Below are positions 9,805 to 33,596 of a DNA stretch of 34,917 nt, piece after piece. Position 1 is the first letter of the stretch; each line of letters opens with the position of its first letter. Both the position numbers and the translations under genes were made by a program. Under the pieces are notes generated by a model that searched no databases, was not told where the DNA came from, and saw nothing but the letters and a program-made list of their open reading frames with translations. The DNA is from Actinobacteria bacterium HGW-Actinobacteria-7 (lineage in GTDB: Bacteria; Actinomycetota; Coriobacteriia; Anaerosomatales; PHET01), in NCBI GenBank assembly GCA_002841275.1, contig PHET01000025.1:1-34917 (forward strand), written 5' to 3'.

Positions 9805-9832
9805 TTGACAAAGAATTGCCTTTGACTACCAT
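9805..9832 (+). promoter_or_regulatory. Promoter of the class III RNR operon
   Basis: A consensus -35 TTGACA (9805-9810) is followed after 16 bp by TACCAT (9827-9832). The expected transcription start near 9840 coincides with the 5' edge of the cobalamin riboswitch, which supports the placement. Confidence 0.65.
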
Positions 9833-9871
9833 ATGTTGTGCCACGGTTCCCCAGACCACAATATCTGGGGC
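9826..9871. promoter_or_regulatory. Two NrdR boxes
   Basis: Two sites resemble the NrdR consensus ACACWATATCTTGTGT: 9826-9841 (11 of 16 matches, strong right half ATAT-TTGTG) and 9856-9871 (12 of 16, strong left half CCACAATATCT). Their ATAT cores are 30 bp apart, close to three helical turns as in known tandem NrdR sites. The first overlaps the -10. NrdR represses RNR operons when (d)ATP is abundant. The pairing and location make this likely although each box is imperfect. Confidence 0.65.
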
Positions 9872-10038
9872 TAAGAGGGAAGCCGGTGCCTCCGAGTGGA
9901 GAATGCCGGCGCTGTCCCCGCATCTGTGTGCGGCGAGCTGCTGTCAGCTGAATGTCACTGGCGTGAGGTAGCGTCGGGAAGACGATGACAGTGGTGATGA
10001 CCCGCGAGCCAGAAGACCTGCCGCGGCATGAAGAACCG
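9844..10038 (+). ncRNA. Cobalamin riboswitch
   Basis: The leader of nrdD contains the conserved blocks of the AdoCbl riboswitch in order: GGGAAGCCGGTGCC (9878-9890 region), CTGTCCCCGCATCTGT and GCGGCGAG (9912-9936), TGTCACTGG (9953-9961), CGGGAAG (9975-9981), then GATGACCCGCGAGCCAG and the B12 box AGCCAGAAGACCTGCC (to 10022). P1 can form from CGGTTC (9844-9849) and GAACCG (10033-10038). No U-run terminator follows, so control is probably at translation. Cobalamin binding should switch off the B12-independent RNR, as reported for class I nrd genes in Streptomyces; that implies a B12-dependent class II enzyme elsewhere. Confidence 0.92.
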
Positions 10039-10136
10039 AAACGTTCGGGCGGGGTGTCTCAGCGGTTCGAGTATCGATGCGGCTGTGCTGCGTTGATACC
10101 CGGCCTGGGAGCCTGTTCCCCGAGAGGAGTATCAGC

Positions 10137-20774: not shown

Positions 20775-22172
20775 GTGCGCCGTACGAAGATCATTGCAAC
20801 GCTGGGTCCCGCCACGGATCCGGATGGAGTTCTCGAAGGCCTGATTGCCGCGGGCGTGGATGTAGTACGCCTCAACGCCGCGCATGCGGAGCCGCAGGAG
20901 CTTGCCCAGCGGCTGGGGGCGATTCGTTCTGCAGCGGCTCGCGCAGGTCGCGAGATAGGCGTCCTTCTCGATCTGCCGGGACCCAAGATTCGGGTTGGCG
21001 ATGTGGCCGAGGGAACCGTCCTCGAGCCCGGTGCGGAGTTCAGTCTGGTGGCCGAGTCGTGTGTCGGGGGTTGCCAGAGCGCGTCGATCTCCCACTACGC
21101 ACTCTCTGACGATGTGTCAGCGGGAGATCGGATCCTGCTCGATGATGGTCGTCTCGAACTGATTGTCGTGAAGGTCAATCCCGGCGAGGTTGTGAGTCGT
21201 GTGGTCATCGGTGGAGCGCTCACCAGCCACAAGGGCGTGAATATCCCCGGAGTCACCCTGTCGATCGACGCGATCACCCAGTATGACCGGGAGGTGCTTG
21301 CGTGGGCGATGGGTGCCGAGATCGATTGGGTGGGGCAGTCCTTCGTGCGGTCCGCACGCGATATCCAGGAATTGCGGTCCTGCATGACGGAGAGACAGAT
21401 CCCCATCATTGCCAAGATCGAGAAGCACGAGGCTGCTGCATCGATAGCAGAGATCGTCTCGGCGGCCGACGCGGTGATGGTCGCTCGTGGCGATCTGGCT
21501 GTGGAGACGGCTCCGGAACGCGTTCCGGTGCTGCAGAGGCAGATTGTCGCAGCCGCTCGAGCCGCAGGTAAGCCGGTCGTCATCGCAACTGAGATGCTTG
21601 ATTCGATGAGGGAGCGACCACGTCCCACGCGTGCCGAGGCGAGCGACGTCGCGTCAGCGATATTCATCCGGGCTGATGCCGTCATGCTCTCCGGCGAGAC
21701 GGCAGTGGGTCTGTATCCTATTGAGTCCGTGGCCACCATGGCGCGTATAGCAGTCGCCGCAGAAGCGGCTGCACCGCCACCACGTCCGCCGCACGGGTCG
21801 TCGGATACCGATGACGTGCAGACGGCAGTGAGTGCTGCCGTCAGCGAACTCGCAGCCGACCTGCATCTCGCCGCGATCGTCACACTCACCCAGTCGGGGG
21901 CGACGGCGCTCGCCGTCTCGCGCTATCGGCCGGTGACGCCGATCATCGCGGCTACTCCGCGCGTGGAAGTTGCACGCCGGCTGCAGATGGCGTGGGGGGT
22001 ACGGTCGATCACGCTGCCATTCGCAGAGCATACTGACGCACGGCTCGACCAGGTCACGACTGCCGTCAGGGAGGCGGGTCTTGCCTCGCCGGGCGAGTGC
22101 ATCGCGATGACCGCGGGGTTGTGGTCGCGCGTTCCCGGTGGCACCGATTTCCTGCATGTTCGCGCGGTGTGA
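20775..22172 (+). CDS. pyk: Pyruvate kinase, probably potassium-independent
   Basis: The 465-residue enzyme makes ATP and pyruvate from phosphoenolpyruvate. GTG 20775 follows GAGGAGGCGG and opens with RRTKIIATLGPATD. Motifs: VVRLNAAHAE, LLDLPGPKIRVG, SHKGVNIPG, IIAKIEKHEA with the catalytic lysine, MVARGDLAVE, IATEMLDSMRERPRPTRAEA and DAVMLSGETAVGLYP. Lys71 in GPKIR stands where potassium-dependent enzymes have Glu117 (rabbit numbering), and two potassium ligands are lost (Ser76 to Ala36, Thr113 to Leu67), so it should not need potassium. The usual GDLGVE is GDLAVE. It has its own 62-bp upstream gap. Confidence 0.95.
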   Translation: MRRTKIIATLGPATDPDGVLEGLIAAGVDVVRLNAAHAEPQELAQRLGAIRSAAARAGREIGVLLDLPGPKIRVGDVAEGTVLEPGAEFSLVAESCVGGCQSASISHYALSDDVSAGDRILLDDGRLELIVVKVNPGEVVSRVVIGGALTSHKGVNIPGVTLSIDAITQYDREVLAWAMGAEIDWVGQSFVRSARDIQELRSCMTERQIPIIAKIEKHEAAASIAEIVSAADAVMVARGDLAVETAPERVPVLQRQIVAAARAAGKPVVIATEMLDSMRERPRPTRAEASDVASAIFIRADAVMLSGETAVGLYPIESVATMARIAVAAEAAAPPPRPPHGSSDTDDVQTAVSAAVSELAADLHLAAIVTLTQSGATALAVSRYRPVTPIIAATPRVEVARRLQMAWGVRSITLPFAEHTDARLDQVTTAVREAGLASPGECIAMTAGLWSRVPGGTDFLHVRAV

Positions 22173-22215
22173 ACCTCCGCTTCTCACACGGGTCATGACG
22201 ACATGCTGGGGGGTG

Positions 22216-22229
22216 CGAACAGGCGTTCG
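22216..22229. promoter_or_regulatory. LexA/SOS-box-like operator
   Basis: CGAACAGGCGTTCG is a perfect CGAAC-N4-GTTCG palindrome, the core of the Gram-positive (DinR/LexA) SOS box. It lies in the pyk to ftsB-like gap, 51 bp upstream of the -10 at 22281. A 10-bp palindrome TAGACGTCTA follows at 22247-22256. If LexA binds here it would tie a division gene to DNA damage. Chance occurrence of a 10-base match is possible. Confidence 0.5.
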
Positions 22230-22257
22230 TATCCCTAAGCCTCAAGTAGACGTCTAG

Positions 22258-22286
22258 ACGACACACCCGCGCTATGGTGCTACAAT
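22258..22286 (+). promoter_or_regulatory. -10 element TACAAT ahead of the ftsB-like gene
   Basis: TACAAT at 22281-22286, preceded by TGC, is a good -10. No clear -35 is seen (GACGAC near 22258). The ATG at 22285 overlaps this box and is therefore unlikely to be the start of the downstream gene. Confidence 0.45.
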
Positions 22287-22353
22287 GCGCCCGTACTCGG
22301 CTAACCATGCCGAGACGGATCGCTGGCCTTCACCTAGGACTTCTCAGGGGCTC

Positions 22354-22917
22354 ATGGCACCGAGGAAAACGCACAACGGGGCTTCAGCGGCGACGCGACG
22401 CACACCCACGCGAGGTGGGGTGCGTGCGTCGTCTGCTTCGCGCACTTCGACGTCGCCGAAGCCGCGCCCCGCAGCGCGACCGAAGGCGCGGACCTCCTCG
22501 GCGAAGAAGAGCAAACGTCGCAGCGCCGACCCCGGCCGCTGGTGGACACTCCCGGCTGCGGTGGTCGTGGTATTGGTCGTGTTCGCGTGGTCGTACTATC
22601 CGGTCGTACGTGTTCAGTATCGCGAGACTCGCGAGCAGGCCCGCCTGGCTGCTGAGCTGAAGGGCCTGCAGGAACGCAACGAGAGGCTCCGCGACTCGGT
22701 CGATCGGCTCAGAACCCCCGAGGGCGTCGAGGACTACGCACGCAGTCAACTCGGGTTGGTCAAGAAGGGCGAGCACCGTGTCGTCGTCGTGACCGACGGC
22801 AAGGCTCAGGCCTCCTCGGCACCCGCCAACACGTTGCGCATCGACAGCGACGAGACCACTGCTACGCCGATCGGCCCGTGGACGGCCTTCCTCGACCTGG
22901 TGTTCGGCGTCGAGTGA
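22354..22917 (+). CDS. FtsB/DivIC-like septum formation initiator
   Basis: The 187-residue bitopic membrane protein is started at ATG 22354 because the ATG at 22285 overlaps a promoter element. Residues 1-62 are a basic Ala/Ser/Arg/Lys-rich cytoplasmic tail. WWTLPAAVVVVLVVFAWSYYP (63-83) is the single membrane helix. Then comes a coiled coil, YRETREQARLAAELKGLQER with NERLRDSVDRL, and the family motif TPEGVEDYARSQLGLVKKGE. FtsB/DivIC joins FtsL and FtsQ/DivIB in the divisome. Position between eno/pyk and DUF501-Ppx matches actinobacterial genomes. Its stop overlaps the next GTG. Confidence 0.85.
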   Translation: MAPRKTHNGASAATRRTPTRGGVRASSASRTSTSPKPRPAARPKARTSSAKKSKRRSADPGRWWTLPAAVVVVLVVFAWSYYPVVRVQYRETREQARLAAELKGLQERNERLRDSVDRLRTPEGVEDYARSQLGLVKKGEHRVVVVTDGKAQASSAPANTLRIDSDETTATPIGPWTAFLDLVFGVE

Positions 22918-23441
22918 GTTCCGAAGCACACACCGGCTCGGACGTATCGCTTGTCGCCGCGCAGATAGGGCGCGCTCCTCGGGAACCGTGGCGCGTCCGG
23001 ACCCGGTGCAAATGGGGACATCCCAGCGTGATAGTGTCGCCGTCGACTCTTGGCGACGGAACACCCTTTCCGACCTTGGCATGGCTGACCTGTCCGTGGC
23101 TCGCCGAGGAGGTCTCGGCGTTGGAGTCTGCGGGCGGGGTCTCCCGCTGGCGGTCCTGTGTCGCAGCTGATCAGGCAATCACCGATGAGTTGCTGGAGGC
23201 GGATGCGGCTCTGAGAGAGGCGCGCGCGCGGGAAAGCAGCGGCCGCGATGAGTGCGCCGGCGTGGGGATAGCCGGCCAGAGTGATCCATTGCAGGTGAAG
23301 TGTCTGCACACGCATGTCGCCCTCGCGCTCATGGACATCGCGGACCCGGTGGGTCGGGGAGTCCTGGCCGAAGTTGGCGACGCGTGCCCCGATGAGCGCT
23401 GCGCTCGGCTGGTGCTCACGATGGCGGAGGGTCTGCGCTGA
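22914..23441 (+). CDS. DUF501 family protein
   Basis: The 175-residue soluble protein starts at GTG 22914 (GTGA overlap with the FtsB-like stop). CKWGHPSVIVSPSTLGDGTPFPTLAWLTCPWL and LEADAALREARARE are characteristic of DUF501, an uncharacterised family always found beside FtsB/DivIC and Ppx/GppA in actinobacteria. Several cysteines (CKWGHP, LTCPWL, QVKCLHTHVALALMD) plus histidines could bind metal. The KCLHTHVA segment is the most conserved. Function is unknown; context suggests division or polyphosphate/(p)ppGpp metabolism. Confidence 0.85.
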   Translation: MSSEAHTGSDVSLVAAQIGRAPREPWRVRTRCKWGHPSVIVSPSTLGDGTPFPTLAWLTCPWLAEEVSALESAGGVSRWRSCVAADQAITDELLEADAALREARARESSGRDECAGVGIAGQSDPLQVKCLHTHVALALMDIADPVGRGVLAEVGDACPDERCARLVLTMAEGLR

Positions 23442-24388
23442 TGGGTGGAACCGTACGTCTTGCCGCAATAGACATCGGCACCGTCACCACGCGGCTACTC
23501 GTCGCCGACGTGGGACCGGGAGGCGTTGCCGAGGTCGGTCGGTCGACCGATATCACTCATCTGGGAGAGGGGCTTACCTCGAGCGGGCGCCTGTCTGCTG
23601 ATGCGATGAACCGGGTCGCAGACGTGATTGCCCGCTATGCGGACACGATGGCAGAGCTTGACGTGGTCCGGTTCCAGGCACTGGCCACCAGTGCGAGCCG
23701 TGACGCCGAGAATGGCAGCGAATTCACCGCGCTGCTGGCCAGCCGCGGAGTGGTGCCCAGCATCATCGAAGGGTCACGAGAGGCAGAACTGGCGTTTCTT
23801 GGCGCAACCGCTCAGATCGGCGGGGAAGGGCTGCTCGTGGTCGACTGCGGCGGTGGCTCCACCGAACTCGTGGTGGGCAGCGCGGATCACTCGGGACCCG
23901 AGCTCGTAGTGGATATTGAGGCCGCGCGCTCGATCGATGTAGGCAGCAGACGCATGACCGAGATGTTCCTGCACAGCGATCCGCCAACCAGAAACGAGAT
24001 CGCGGAAGCACGCGGATGGGCCGCCGACGAACTGAGGGGATTCTTCGACCGGCTCGACGAGCGCCCCACGCAGATGATAGGTCTCGCAGGTACAGCGACC
24101 ACGCTTGCTGCTGTGAGGCTCGAGATGGCCGTCTACGATCCCGCGAGGGTGCATGGGTTCGAACTCTCAGGCGCCGATATCTCAGATGAGGTAGAGCTTC
24201 TGGCGGCGCTGCCCTTGGAAAGACGCCGTCGGGTCGTGGGTGTTCATCCCCAACGGGCGGGAGTGATCGTGGCCGGCGCACTGATACTCGAGACGGTGCT
24301 GGCGCTCGCCGGTCTGGACAGCATGGTTGTGAGCGAGCATGACATCTTGTATGGGATACTCTTGGACACCTATCGCGACCTGCAGTGA
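23441..24388 (+). CDS. ppx: Ppx/GppA family exopolyphosphatase
   Basis: The 315-residue protein of the actin-like ATPase fold starts at ATG 23441, sharing one base with the DUF501 stop (TGATG). LAAIDIGTVTTRLLVADV is the phosphate 1 motif, FQALATSASRDAEN and IIEGSREAELAFLG are family specific, VVDCGGGSTELVVG is the phosphate 2 motif and IGLAGTATTLAAV follows. It releases phosphate from polyphosphate or hydrolyses pppGpp. The short form without the C-terminal HD domain is typical of actinobacterial Ppx1/Ppx2. Ppx versus GppA cannot be separated by sequence alone. Confidence 0.9.
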   Translation: MGGTVRLAAIDIGTVTTRLLVADVGPGGVAEVGRSTDITHLGEGLTSSGRLSADAMNRVADVIARYADTMAELDVVRFQALATSASRDAENGSEFTALLASRGVVPSIIEGSREAELAFLGATAQIGGEGLLVVDCGGGSTELVVGSADHSGPELVVDIEAARSIDVGSRRMTEMFLHSDPPTRNEIAEARGWAADELRGFFDRLDERPTQMIGLAGTATTLAAVRLEMAVYDPARVHGFELSGADISDEVELLAALPLERRRRVVGVHPQRAGVIVAGALILETVLALAGLDSMVVSEHDILYGILLDTYRDLQ

Positions 24389-29859: not shown

Positions 29860-30906
29860 ATGAGTTCACACGAACCGGTACGTCTCACAAGTCTCTCAAG
29901 CAAAGCCGGTTGAGCGGCCAAGTGGGGTCCGGAGGATCTCCAGAAAGTACTCGACAAGATCGCGCCGGGAAACTCGGACGCGCTGATGCTGGGATTTGAG
30001 ACCAGCGATGACTGCGCGGTCTACCGGCTCAACGACGACATGGCGGCGCTGCTGACGATCGACTTCTTCACCCCGATCGTCGACGACCCTTATGATTTCG
30101 GGCGCATCACGGCAGCAAATGCACTCTCAGACGTGTACGCGATGGGTGGCCGGCCGCTTACCGCGCTCAACATGCTCGCGTTTCCCTGTTCGCTGGGTGC
30201 CGACATCGTTGGGGAGGTCGTTCGTGGGGGTGCCGAGAAGGTCACCGAGGCAGGTGCCGTGACCGTGGGCGGCCACACCATCGACGACAAGGAGCCCAAG
30301 TACGGGCTGTCGGTCTTCGGAGTGGTGCATCCGGACAAGGTCGTTCGAAACCGGGGTGCTCGACCGGGAGACGTTCTGTTTCTCACCAAGCCGGTAGGCA
30401 CCGGAATCTGGGGCACCGCGTTGAAGCGCCAGCTGGTGACTGAAGACGACGCGCGAGAGGTCATCGAGTCGATGGCGACGTTGAACAAGGCGGCGTGCGA
30501 GGCCATGGTCGAAGTCGGCGTGCATGCTGCCACGGACCTGACTGGGTTCGGGGTGCTTGGCCACCTTCAGGAGATGGCGCATGCGAGCGGGTGCGCAGCT
30601 GAACTCTCACTGGCTACCGTTCCCCTGTTCCCCCGGACCGTCGAGTTCGCGGAGGAGGATGTGGTTCCGGGCAGAACGGCAGAGGTCATCTCTTGGGCGA
30701 ACGGCTTTGTGCAGTGGCACAGCTCGCAACCGCGCAATCTCTGGATGAAGGTGCTTTGCGACCCTCAGACCAGCGGTGGCCTCATGATCGCCGTGTCGGA
30801 GGAGGCAGCGGATCAGCTGCGCATCGGCCTCGAGGTCCGGGGTGTCGAGGCGGCGAGTATCGGCCGCTTCACCTCGGGTTCGCCAGGCGTCATCACCGTC
30901 ATCTGA
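29860..30906 (+). CDS. selD: Selenide, water dikinase, itself a selenoprotein
   Basis: Read from ATG 29860 (AAAGG upstream) through the in-frame TGA at 29911-29913, the product has 348 residues: MSSHEPVRLTSLSSKAG, then Sec18, AAKWGPEDLQ. This matches the E. coli start SVRLTQYSHGAGCGCK, in which Cys17 is catalytic; Sec replaces it. The second Cys of that motif is Ala here. The ATP-binding core follows: DDCAVYRLND, DFFTPIVDDPYDFGRITAANALSDVYAMGG, GGHTIDDKEPKYGLSV, LTKPVGTGI, ATDLTGFGVLGH and DPQTSGGLMIAV. It makes selenophosphate for tRNA-Sec. Gene callers that stop at TGA would start it at 29986 and lose the active site. Confidence 0.93.
29911..29941 (+). promoter_or_regulatory. SECIS hairpin of selD
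   Basis: Right after the UGA, a seven-pair stem (29924-29930 with 29934-29940, two of them G-U) closes a GGA loop at 29931-29933. The loop guanines are 21-22 nt from the U of UGA, within the distance used by bacterial SelB. The position and GG apex support Sec decoding. Confidence 0.7.
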
Positions 30907-32065: not shown

Positions 32066-32104
32066 GTGAGGGGACGGTGAGAGGAGCGTGAGAGTTCTCT
32101 CACG
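32066..32104. promoter_or_regulatory. 11-bp phased GTGAG repeats (OmpR/PhoB-type operator candidate)
   Basis: GTGAG occurs at 32066, 32077 and 32088, exactly 11 bp apart; on the minus strand this reads CTCTCAC-GCTC, CTCTCAC-CGTC, CCCTCAC-GTTC. Tandem 11-bp direct repeat units are how OmpR/PhoB-family regulators bind (for example PHO boxes in Streptomyces). The last unit also forms the palindrome CGTGAGAGTTCTCTCACG (32087-32104). It lies 61-93 bp upstream of the CxxCH gene start, with TAGTTG at about 32048-32053 (minus strand) as a possible -10, and upstream of selA on the other side. Confidence 0.5.
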
Positions 32105-32188
32105 AAGGTGGTCGGGCGTGACGTACAGACGGGTCGAACGACCGGCACACGGGCAGGATGTGGTCCGTCGCGCGGTGCCTTCATTCGG

Positions 32189-32194
32189 TACAAT
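32189..32194 (+). promoter_or_regulatory. selA -10 element, probably leaderless transcript
   Basis: TACAAT at 32189-32194 ends 7 bp before the selA ATG at 32202, so the transcript would start at or next to the start codon. No ribosome site is seen there. No convincing -35 is present at 16-18 bp upstream. Confidence 0.45.
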
Positions 32195-32201
32195 CATCCC
32201 C

Positions 32202-33596
32202 ATGGATACCAACACCTCTCTGCGCGCCCTGCCCAAGACCGATGAAGTCCTCGTGCGGGCCGAGCTGGCCTCCGCACTTGAGCGGATGCCGCGTGCGATG
32301 GTCCTGGACGCCGTGCGCGGCGCCATAGAGGCTGCTCGCGCACGCATTCTTGCAGGCGAGGAGCTCAACTACACCGTTGAAGACGCAGCGCGTGACGCGG
32401 CAGGCCGGGCGGTTCTCGCCGAGCGCCACTCGCTGCGGCGGGTCATCAACGCGACCGGCATCATCGTGCACACCAATCTGGGGCGAAGCGTGCTCTCCGA
32501 GGCAGCGGTCGCGGCCGTGGCTGAGGTCGCGACGCACTACTCAACACTCGAGTACGACGTCGAGAGCGGGGAGCGCGGCAGCCGTCACGTGCACTGCGAA
32601 GAGCTGCTGTGCCGGCTCACGGGTGCGGAAGCCGCGATGGCCGTCAACAACAACGCGGCAGCCGTCATGATCGGGCTGGCTGCTCTTGCACGCGGGCACG
32701 AGGCGATCGTGAGCCGAGGGCAGCTCGTCGAGATCGGCGGCAGCTTCCGGATACCGGACATCATGCGCGAGTCCGGCGCCACGATGGTCGAAGTCGGCAC
32801 CACCAACAAGACACATCTGCGCGACTATGAGAACGCGCTCACCGACAAGACCGGCCTGATTCTCAAGGTCCACTCGTCGAACTACCGCGTGGTGGGCTTC
32901 ACCTCCGAGGTGGAGACGCGCGACTTGGTCGACTTGGGGGCACCACACGCCGTGCCGGTGATGGAGGATCAGGGTTCAGGCGTGCTCGTCGACCTGCAGC
33001 GTTACGGGCTTCCCTATGAGCCCACCGTAGCGCGCAGCATCGAGCAGGGTGCTGCCGTGGTCACCTGCAGTGGCGACAAACTGCTGGGCGGTCCGCAGGC
33101 CGGCATCCTGGTTGGTCGCCACGACATCATCCAGCGGCTCAAGAAGCACCCGATGGCCCGCGCGCTGCGCCTCGACAAGATGACGCTCGCCGCACTTGAA
33201 GCGACGCTCAGAGCCTATCTTGATGAGGAGCGCGCGGTCGCTCAGATACCCACGCTGCGCATGCTCACGATGCCTCTCGCACAGAGCAGCGAGATCGCCG
33301 AGAAGCTCGCCCAGCGTGTGCGCGAGGCGGTAGGCGATGGTGCCGAGGTCACGGTGGCCGAGGACGTCGCCCGCGCGGGCGGCGGCTCGCTTCCCATCAC
33401 CGATATCCCCACCGCTGTCGTCGCGGTGGCTCCACGCACCGTGAGCGTCGTTGCGCTCGAGAACGCGCTTCGCACCGGTGCCGAACCGGCGATCATCGGC
33501 CGCGTCAAAGAAGAGCGGCTGCTGCTCGATCCGCGAACGCTCGTGAACGCCGAGGAGCACGATATCGTCGTGCGCCGTCTCGGCGAGATCCTCTAG
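32202..33596 (+). CDS. selA: L-seryl-tRNA(Sec) selenium transferase
   Basis: The 464-residue PLP enzyme converts seryl-tRNA(Sec) to selenocysteinyl-tRNA(Sec) using selenophosphate from SelD. The ATG at 32202 gives the family length (E. coli 463). Motifs: the N-terminal helical tRNA-binding region [122 protein letters not shown] and the PLP lysine Lys293 in [16 protein letters not shown]. The selB start lies 8 bp downstream. Confidence 0.97.

Follow-up and report, generated by a model that had tools for sequence, protein, structure and literature searches.

A predicted, lineage-restricted LexA operator ahead of the division gene ftsB in Anaerosomatales

In the papers compared here, SOS control of cell division is exerted through dedicated inhibitors. 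According to the consulted part of PMC3989709, C. glutamicum and B. subtilis have lexA in the neighbourhood of SOS-induced division genes. As for structural genes, the ftsL transcript of B. subtilis falls under replication stress, and the available portion of PMC6051672 links this fall to division control and describes it as SOS-independent, while an excerpt of PMC8203912 reports DnaA bound at the B. subtilis ftsL promoter. For mraZ, a division-linked gene that is not an inhibitor, a predicted LexA site was bound in vitro according to the consulted passages of PMC3998124. Literature searches combining LexA or SOS box with ftsB, divIC and Coriobacteriia found no LexA site at ftsB. Judged by title, none of the matches listed for LexA with fts genes concerned such a site, and those for LexA with Coriobacteriia all looked unrelated. 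The terms ftsB and divIC are also absent from the main text of the S. venezuelae LexA ChIP-seq paper (PMC9380542). The site described below is of a known kind; ftsB as its target is new.

The DNA analysed, a stretch of 34,917 nucleotides referred to as the window, is contig C34 of the genome of Actinobacteria bacterium HGW-Actinobacteria-7 (G000; 2.53 Mb, 38 contigs). Along its whole length a perfect CGAAC-N4-GTTCG occurs only once, as CGAACAGGCGTTCG (Table 1). The chance expectation for a perfect core is 0.06 per window, and 6 of 100 dinucleotide-preserving shuffles contained at least one. The first-pass annotation had pointed to this perfect Gram-positive LexA core, placed it 51 bp upstream of a -10 element and described its surroundings as a short gap ahead of an FtsB/DivIC-like gene. 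Each of these statements agrees with the sequence: 28 bp separate the box from the -35 and 51 bp separate it from the TACAAT hexamer, the gap between pyk and ftsB spans 181 bp, and the DivIC domain is recognized by Pfam. The box starts 138 bp before the ftsB start codon and lies 43 bp past the pyk stop; since pyk upstream sits on the same strand, the box serves no divergent gene. At the gathering threshold, Rfam reports no family near the site.

Table 1. Coordinates of the features around the predicted ftsB operator (window positions), and of LexA-core sites ahead of methyltransferase genes (locus and contig positions)
Feature	Position	Strand	Remarks
Pyruvate kinase gene pyk	20775..22172	+	Pfam PK, PK_C; upstream of box
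LexA (SOS) box (predicted) CGAACAGGCGTTCG	22216..22229	.	Palindromic core CGAAC-N4-GTTCG
Spacer between box and -35, 28 bp	22230..22257	+	Same length, mean pairwise identity 0.73 (four box genomes)
-35-like hexamer ACGACA, ftsB promoter	22258..22263	+	GCGACA in the other three box genomes
-10 hexamer TACAAT	22281..22286	+	Extended -10 context GTGCTACAAT
ftsB/divIC, 187 aa	22354..22917	+	Start from homologues (MAPRKT...); Pfam PF04977 DivIC, E 1.7e-13
DUF501 gene	22914..23441	+	Overlaps ftsB end; start chosen by reading; Pfam; operon presumed
Ppx/GppA phosphatase gene ppx	23441..24388	+	Touches DUF501 gene; Pfam; operon presumed
Methyltransferase LexA-core site	L005:1501-1514 (G000:C23:27131)		
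Methyltransferase LexA-core site	L193:1501-1514 (G011:C151:89141)		

The longest open reading frame would start ftsB at 22285. This start was rejected, as it falls inside the -10 hexamer and homologues point to the in-frame ATG at 22354, with most of ten aligned sequences starting at or beside that methionine. A hydrophobic stretch is visible in the FtsB translation, and the gapless gene order ftsB-DUF501-ppx fits an FtsB/DivIC divisome locus. The ftsB promoter, ACGACA-17-TACAAT (22258-22286), is the sole promoter called between 22000 and 22500, and a script located a TGN-extended -10 in 50 of 58 genomes, among them that of the window. Immediately 5' of the -35, at 22240-22257, lies an imperfect dyad-like sequence, CCTCAAGTAGACGTCTAG. 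A dyad beside the -35 appeared general by eye, which the script counts do not bear out: exact dyads (arms of at least 5) occur anywhere in 300 bp in 27 of 58 genomes and not in the window. By hand count, 12 of 58 relatives have exact dyads at the promoter (about -97 to -127). A general dyad operator is thus not claimed. Ahead of the ftsB start, at 22320-22353, there is a leader stretch like GCTGGCCTTCNCACAGGA, a motif found exactly in 12 of 58 genomes and in the looser form [TC]GGCCT in 31 of 58. Elsewhere in the window, Rfam reports a cobalamin riboswitch (9827-10039, +, 122.3 bits), and an AIR-synthase-type gene, possibly selD (29986-30906, +), together with selA (32088-33596, +) suggests selenocysteine use.

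The lexA gene of this genome is found at C26:77970-78578 (TIGR00498, E 3.2e-73; LexA_DNA_bind and Peptidase_S24 domains by Pfam). The perfect core occurs at 12 places in the genome, compared with 5 for a reversed-pattern control. Among these are two sites upstream of lexA, one in the predicted promoter of recA (Pfam RecA) and a pair at a UvrD-helicase gene. Another precedes a DUF6504 gene, behind which lies a gene of the DNA polymerase III alpha type that is read as dnaE2. Three further sites do not resemble targets: one lies within an aminotransferase class-III gene, one within an ORF with no Pfam match, and one, upstream of a HATPase_c gene and dnaA, differs in the type of its inner bases. 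Locating lexA and its own operator, the check proposed by the first-pass annotation, thus yielded two perfect boxes ahead of lexA and one in the predicted recA promoter. A differing LexA motif in this lineage, which would have spoken against the proposal, did not turn up. Throughout the order, lexA was found in 66 of 69 genomes, and each of the 30 loci surveyed out of these 66 carries one or more perfect boxes in the 220 bp upstream of the match, 53 in total. With both orientations of the 53 boxes pooled, 105 of the 106 first inner bases are A or G. This R..Y rule holds, by hand count, at 7 of the 12 perfect-core places of the genome, namely lexA (two), recA, the dnaE2-like operon, the uvrD-like gene, an M23 gene and ftsB. 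The flanks of the lexA-locus boxes show no strong preference with which the ftsB boxes could be compared.

The box in the window therefore matches the motif of the organism's own lexA promoter, and it is one mismatch away from CGAACACCTGTTCG, which is present without any mismatch in two copies upstream of lexA and in single copies at recA and ahead of the M23 gene. With up to 2 mismatches, CGAACACCTGTTCG gives 47 forward and 48 reverse matches versus 20 and 14 for the control. Since the control counts are high, the many weak matches are taken as background, and the window site belongs to the few with one mismatch.

Several other loci carry the same core. Divergently from lexA runs a LysM-type gene (L006:1091-1633, -, on G000:C26) whose predicted promoter carries two perfect LexA boxes; its LysM match has an E-value of 0.00043 and 20.6 bits against a cut-off of 20.9. 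It is followed by nrdR (Pfam), an arrangement resembling the surroundings of known SOS division inhibitors. The lexA-type box CGAACACCTGTTCG at L002:1501-1514 (G000:C19:1824) precedes a Peptidase_M23 gene (1555-2646, +), possibly an SOS-controlled cell-wall hydrolase. CGAACAGTGGTTCG lies upstream of a HATPase_c gene and dnaA (L001:1501-1514, G000:C1:152686), and its inner bases are not of the lexA type. In two genomes of the order, a cytosine-5 DNA methyltransferase gene (Pfam) likewise has a LexA-core site ahead of it (Table 1).

Conservation was followed in 61 genomes searched for FtsB, of which 59 gave matches and two, G010 and G049, gave none. After removal of one weak match (G034, E 7.4e-4), 58 genomes including the window's own were left, and their upstream DNA was read (on a few contigs it extends for less than 300 bp). 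A perfect box ahead of ftsB is present in 4 of 7 members of the clade formed by families f1 and f15 and in 0 of 51 genomes outside. The carriers are G000 and G002 (f1) and G026 and G032 (f15), and the box-free members are G001 and G003 (f1) and G017 (f15), where the 4.5-5 kb fetched from each contain no perfect core. G024 has a box with a single mismatch, AGAACCCCTGTTCG, at a different position, and 28 contigs with a related ftsB have no perfect box within 300 bp upstream (two of them have less than 300 bp there). The two families form one clade with a support of 0.909 in a midpoint-rooted tree of Pyk, FtsB, DUF501 and Ppx pieces (from 53, 58, 57 and 30 genomes, respectively; 58 rows, 1055 columns). 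Because f1 and f15 form one clade, both one gain followed by three losses and up to four gains are possible histories of the box, and the agreement of the four related box genomes does not amount to four independent events.

In all four carriers the distance from box to -35 is 28 bp, even though G032 has an extra gene between pyk and the box, and FtsB of the other three is 49-54% identical to that of the window. The mean pairwise identity among the four rises from 0.32 over the 20 bp to the left of the box to 0.83 in the box itself, and it is 0.92 in the -35. Taken with the spacer value in Table 1, these figures mark the box as the upstream edge of the conserved promoter region. Among perfect 5-4-5 inverted repeats ahead of ftsB in the 57 relatives, the commonest arms are CGAAC and CGTGC with 3 genomes each, so this arm control is not clean; other orderings of the CGAAC letters (30 in all) are represented by one arm only, in 1 of 57 genomes. 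Overall, a box kept at fixed spacing in 4 of 7 clade genomes supports a functional site.

Wider pattern searches give a similar picture. The order-wide pattern matches 26 places in 22 of 69 genomes, with 4 matches in 3 genomes for the control; 4 of the 26 loci are FtsB (the same four genomes), 10 are LexA and 12 neither. The class-wide pattern of box and promoter matches in 9 of 396 genomes, a sample from a larger group, versus 1 of 396 for the reversed pattern. These matches comprise 4 ftsB, 3 uvrA-like genes (identified by Pfam in one case and by reading in two), 1 cytosine methyltransferase gene and 1 place near a tyrosine-recombinase gene. The class-wide pattern thus retrieves chiefly targets of LexA type. 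Both the order-wide and the class-wide pattern demand particular letters, and other arrangements could escape them. The recombinase match is a LexA-type box of the R..Y kind, CGAACAAACGTTCG, in another genome of the class (G260:C2, L196), near a gene of the phage-integrase type.

The ftsB box differs in position from the boxes at the five SOS promoters used for comparison. With the transcription start assumed 7 bp past the -10, its centre lies at about -70.5 (approximately -77 to -64), and the box overlaps neither the -35, the spacer, the -10 nor the start, as the box of a classical LexA-repressed promoter would. At the five other SOS promoters inspected, the boxes do overlap the predicted promoter, with centres at -21.5 for recA, -20.5 for the dnaE2-like operon, -39.5 and +16.5 for the uvrD-like gene, -39.5 and +5.5 for lexA, and -23.5 and +2.5 for the LysM gene. 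A stricter promoter scan called the dnaE2-like, lexA and LysM promoters and missed those of recA and uvrD. An upstream box is not unique to ftsB, since the methyltransferase gene of this genome has a LexA-core site (not R..Y) at -50.5. One lexA-locus box lies at -69.5 from lexA, where it is part of the LysM promoter that points the other way. The same procedure found no convincing promoter for the M23 gene.

According to these results, the site is concluded to be a real, lineage-restricted LexA operator of ftsB, as predicted from sequence, and the interpretation of the first-pass annotation is supported overall. In the reading preferred here, the operator would bring ftsB into the SOS regulon of one clade, namely two families of the order Anaerosomatales (class Coriobacteriia), and would act from upstream, with support of transcription weakly favoured; the probability of this reading as a whole is roughly 0.4. 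What the data show is the sequence itself, its likeness in kind to the genome's own LexA motif, its conservation at a fixed spacing and its place relative to predicted promoters; we infer LexA binding, membership of the operon and the direction of control. DUF501 and ppx would presumably join ftsB in the regulon. From its place at about -77 to -64, 5' of the single conserved ftsB promoter, LexA would modulate transcription without the usual block of polymerase; simple occlusion is argued against by the box centre near -70.5 and by the lack of a second promoter at the box. The earlier caution that a second promoter or activation had to be considered was apt, though its first half found no counterpart in the form of a conserved second -10 near the box, so upstream action on one conserved promoter is the better reading.

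As for the sign of this action, LexA supporting ftsB transcription, with damage lowering FtsB, is weakly favoured, and weak repression is nearly as likely. In undamaged cells, bound LexA would help a promoter with a weak -35. Upon damage, RecA-triggered cleavage of LexA would lower FtsB, and this fall would strengthen the arrest of division that the separate LysM-type gene beside lexA imposes. That LexA is in this way an upstream activator of a core and presumably essential divisome gene, whose RecA-triggered destruction switches ftsB down, is a tentative proposal. The distance of about -70.5 resembles that of class I activators; LexA, however, is generally a repressor, which counts against activation, and the matches listed in a literature search for LexA as an activator included nothing usable. 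Support of transcription fits the biology slightly better, because the LysM-type gene with its boxes adjoins lexA and because ftsL falls in B. subtilis. A need for LexA as activator is doubtful, since box-free promoters look equally weak at the -35, and the regulation seems dispensable for ftsB, given that G001, G003, G017 and all 51 outside genomes have no perfect box.

The same operator might also work with the opposite sign, a reading nearly as likely. From its upstream place, LexA would then weakly repress ftsB, for instance by getting in the way of an activator bound at the dyad beside the -35 or of the alpha subunit of the polymerase, and damage would raise FtsB, perhaps preparing division after repair. 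LexA represses its usual targets, and the boxes of the five inspected SOS promoters are suited to repression; moreover, the ftsB box borders a conserved spacer in which some relatives have an exact dyad, from which an activator could be displaced. However, a single box near -70.5 overlaps neither -35 nor -10, no conserved second promoter was found at the box, and more division protein during damage would presumably run counter to division arrest.

It is improbable that LexA binds but leaves ftsB unaffected or nearly so, the box being a relic or a LexA store in the course of loss. The absence of the box from G001, G003 and G017, close relatives of carriers, would fit such a loss, but a perfect core and the 28-bp spacing are kept in four genomes, among which FtsB of the other three shares 49-54% identity with that of the window and similarity to the left of the box is close to that expected by chance. 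Still less probable is a second, overlapping, damage-inducible ftsB promoter driven by the box: the five SOS promoters inspected elsewhere in the genome seem to have such a layout, but G000 and G026 have no TANNNT within 45 bp on either side of the box, and those of G002 and G032 lie at places that do not match. Finally, a pyk terminator hairpin or a chance palindrome that no protein binds is the least likely reading, for although the repeat stands behind pyk and its arms could pair into a 5-bp stem around a 4-base loop, no terminator-like site is called in 22000-22500, the CGAAC arms are invariant in four genomes where a hairpin would tolerate paired changes, and both the 0.06 expected per window and the near absence of reordered arms (one of 30 orderings, 1 of 57 genomes) speak against chance.

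Returning to the predicted LexA operator, if the preferred reading is true, this lineage tunes the amount of a divisome core protein upon damage and not only inhibitors. If LexA indeed activates, the result would be a division checkpoint by withdrawal of a structural protein, alongside the LysM-type inhibitor. The fixed upstream position makes the question of activation by LexA directly testable.

In comparison with known systems, the site shares the core and inner-base preference of Gram-positive LexA/SOS boxes, as seen at lexA and recA of this genome and at the 30 lexA loci, and differs from them in lying upstream of its promoter (about -70.5) rather than on it. The product of mraZ is not a core divisome protein. 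The mraZ site, as far as the consulted part of its source describes it, is the nearest precedent found, although it belongs to another gene and comes from another source than the ftsB box. The fall of ftsL in B. subtilis is alike in being transcriptional control of a member of the FtsL-DivIC group, but it is SOS-independent, whereas the site here is of the LexA type. As for the SOS division inhibitors YneA, SosA, DivS and ChiZ (Rv2719c), they are alike in linking DNA damage to the septal machinery; in contrast to these inhibitors, the gene that carries the predicted LexA site here is a structural gene of the divisome.
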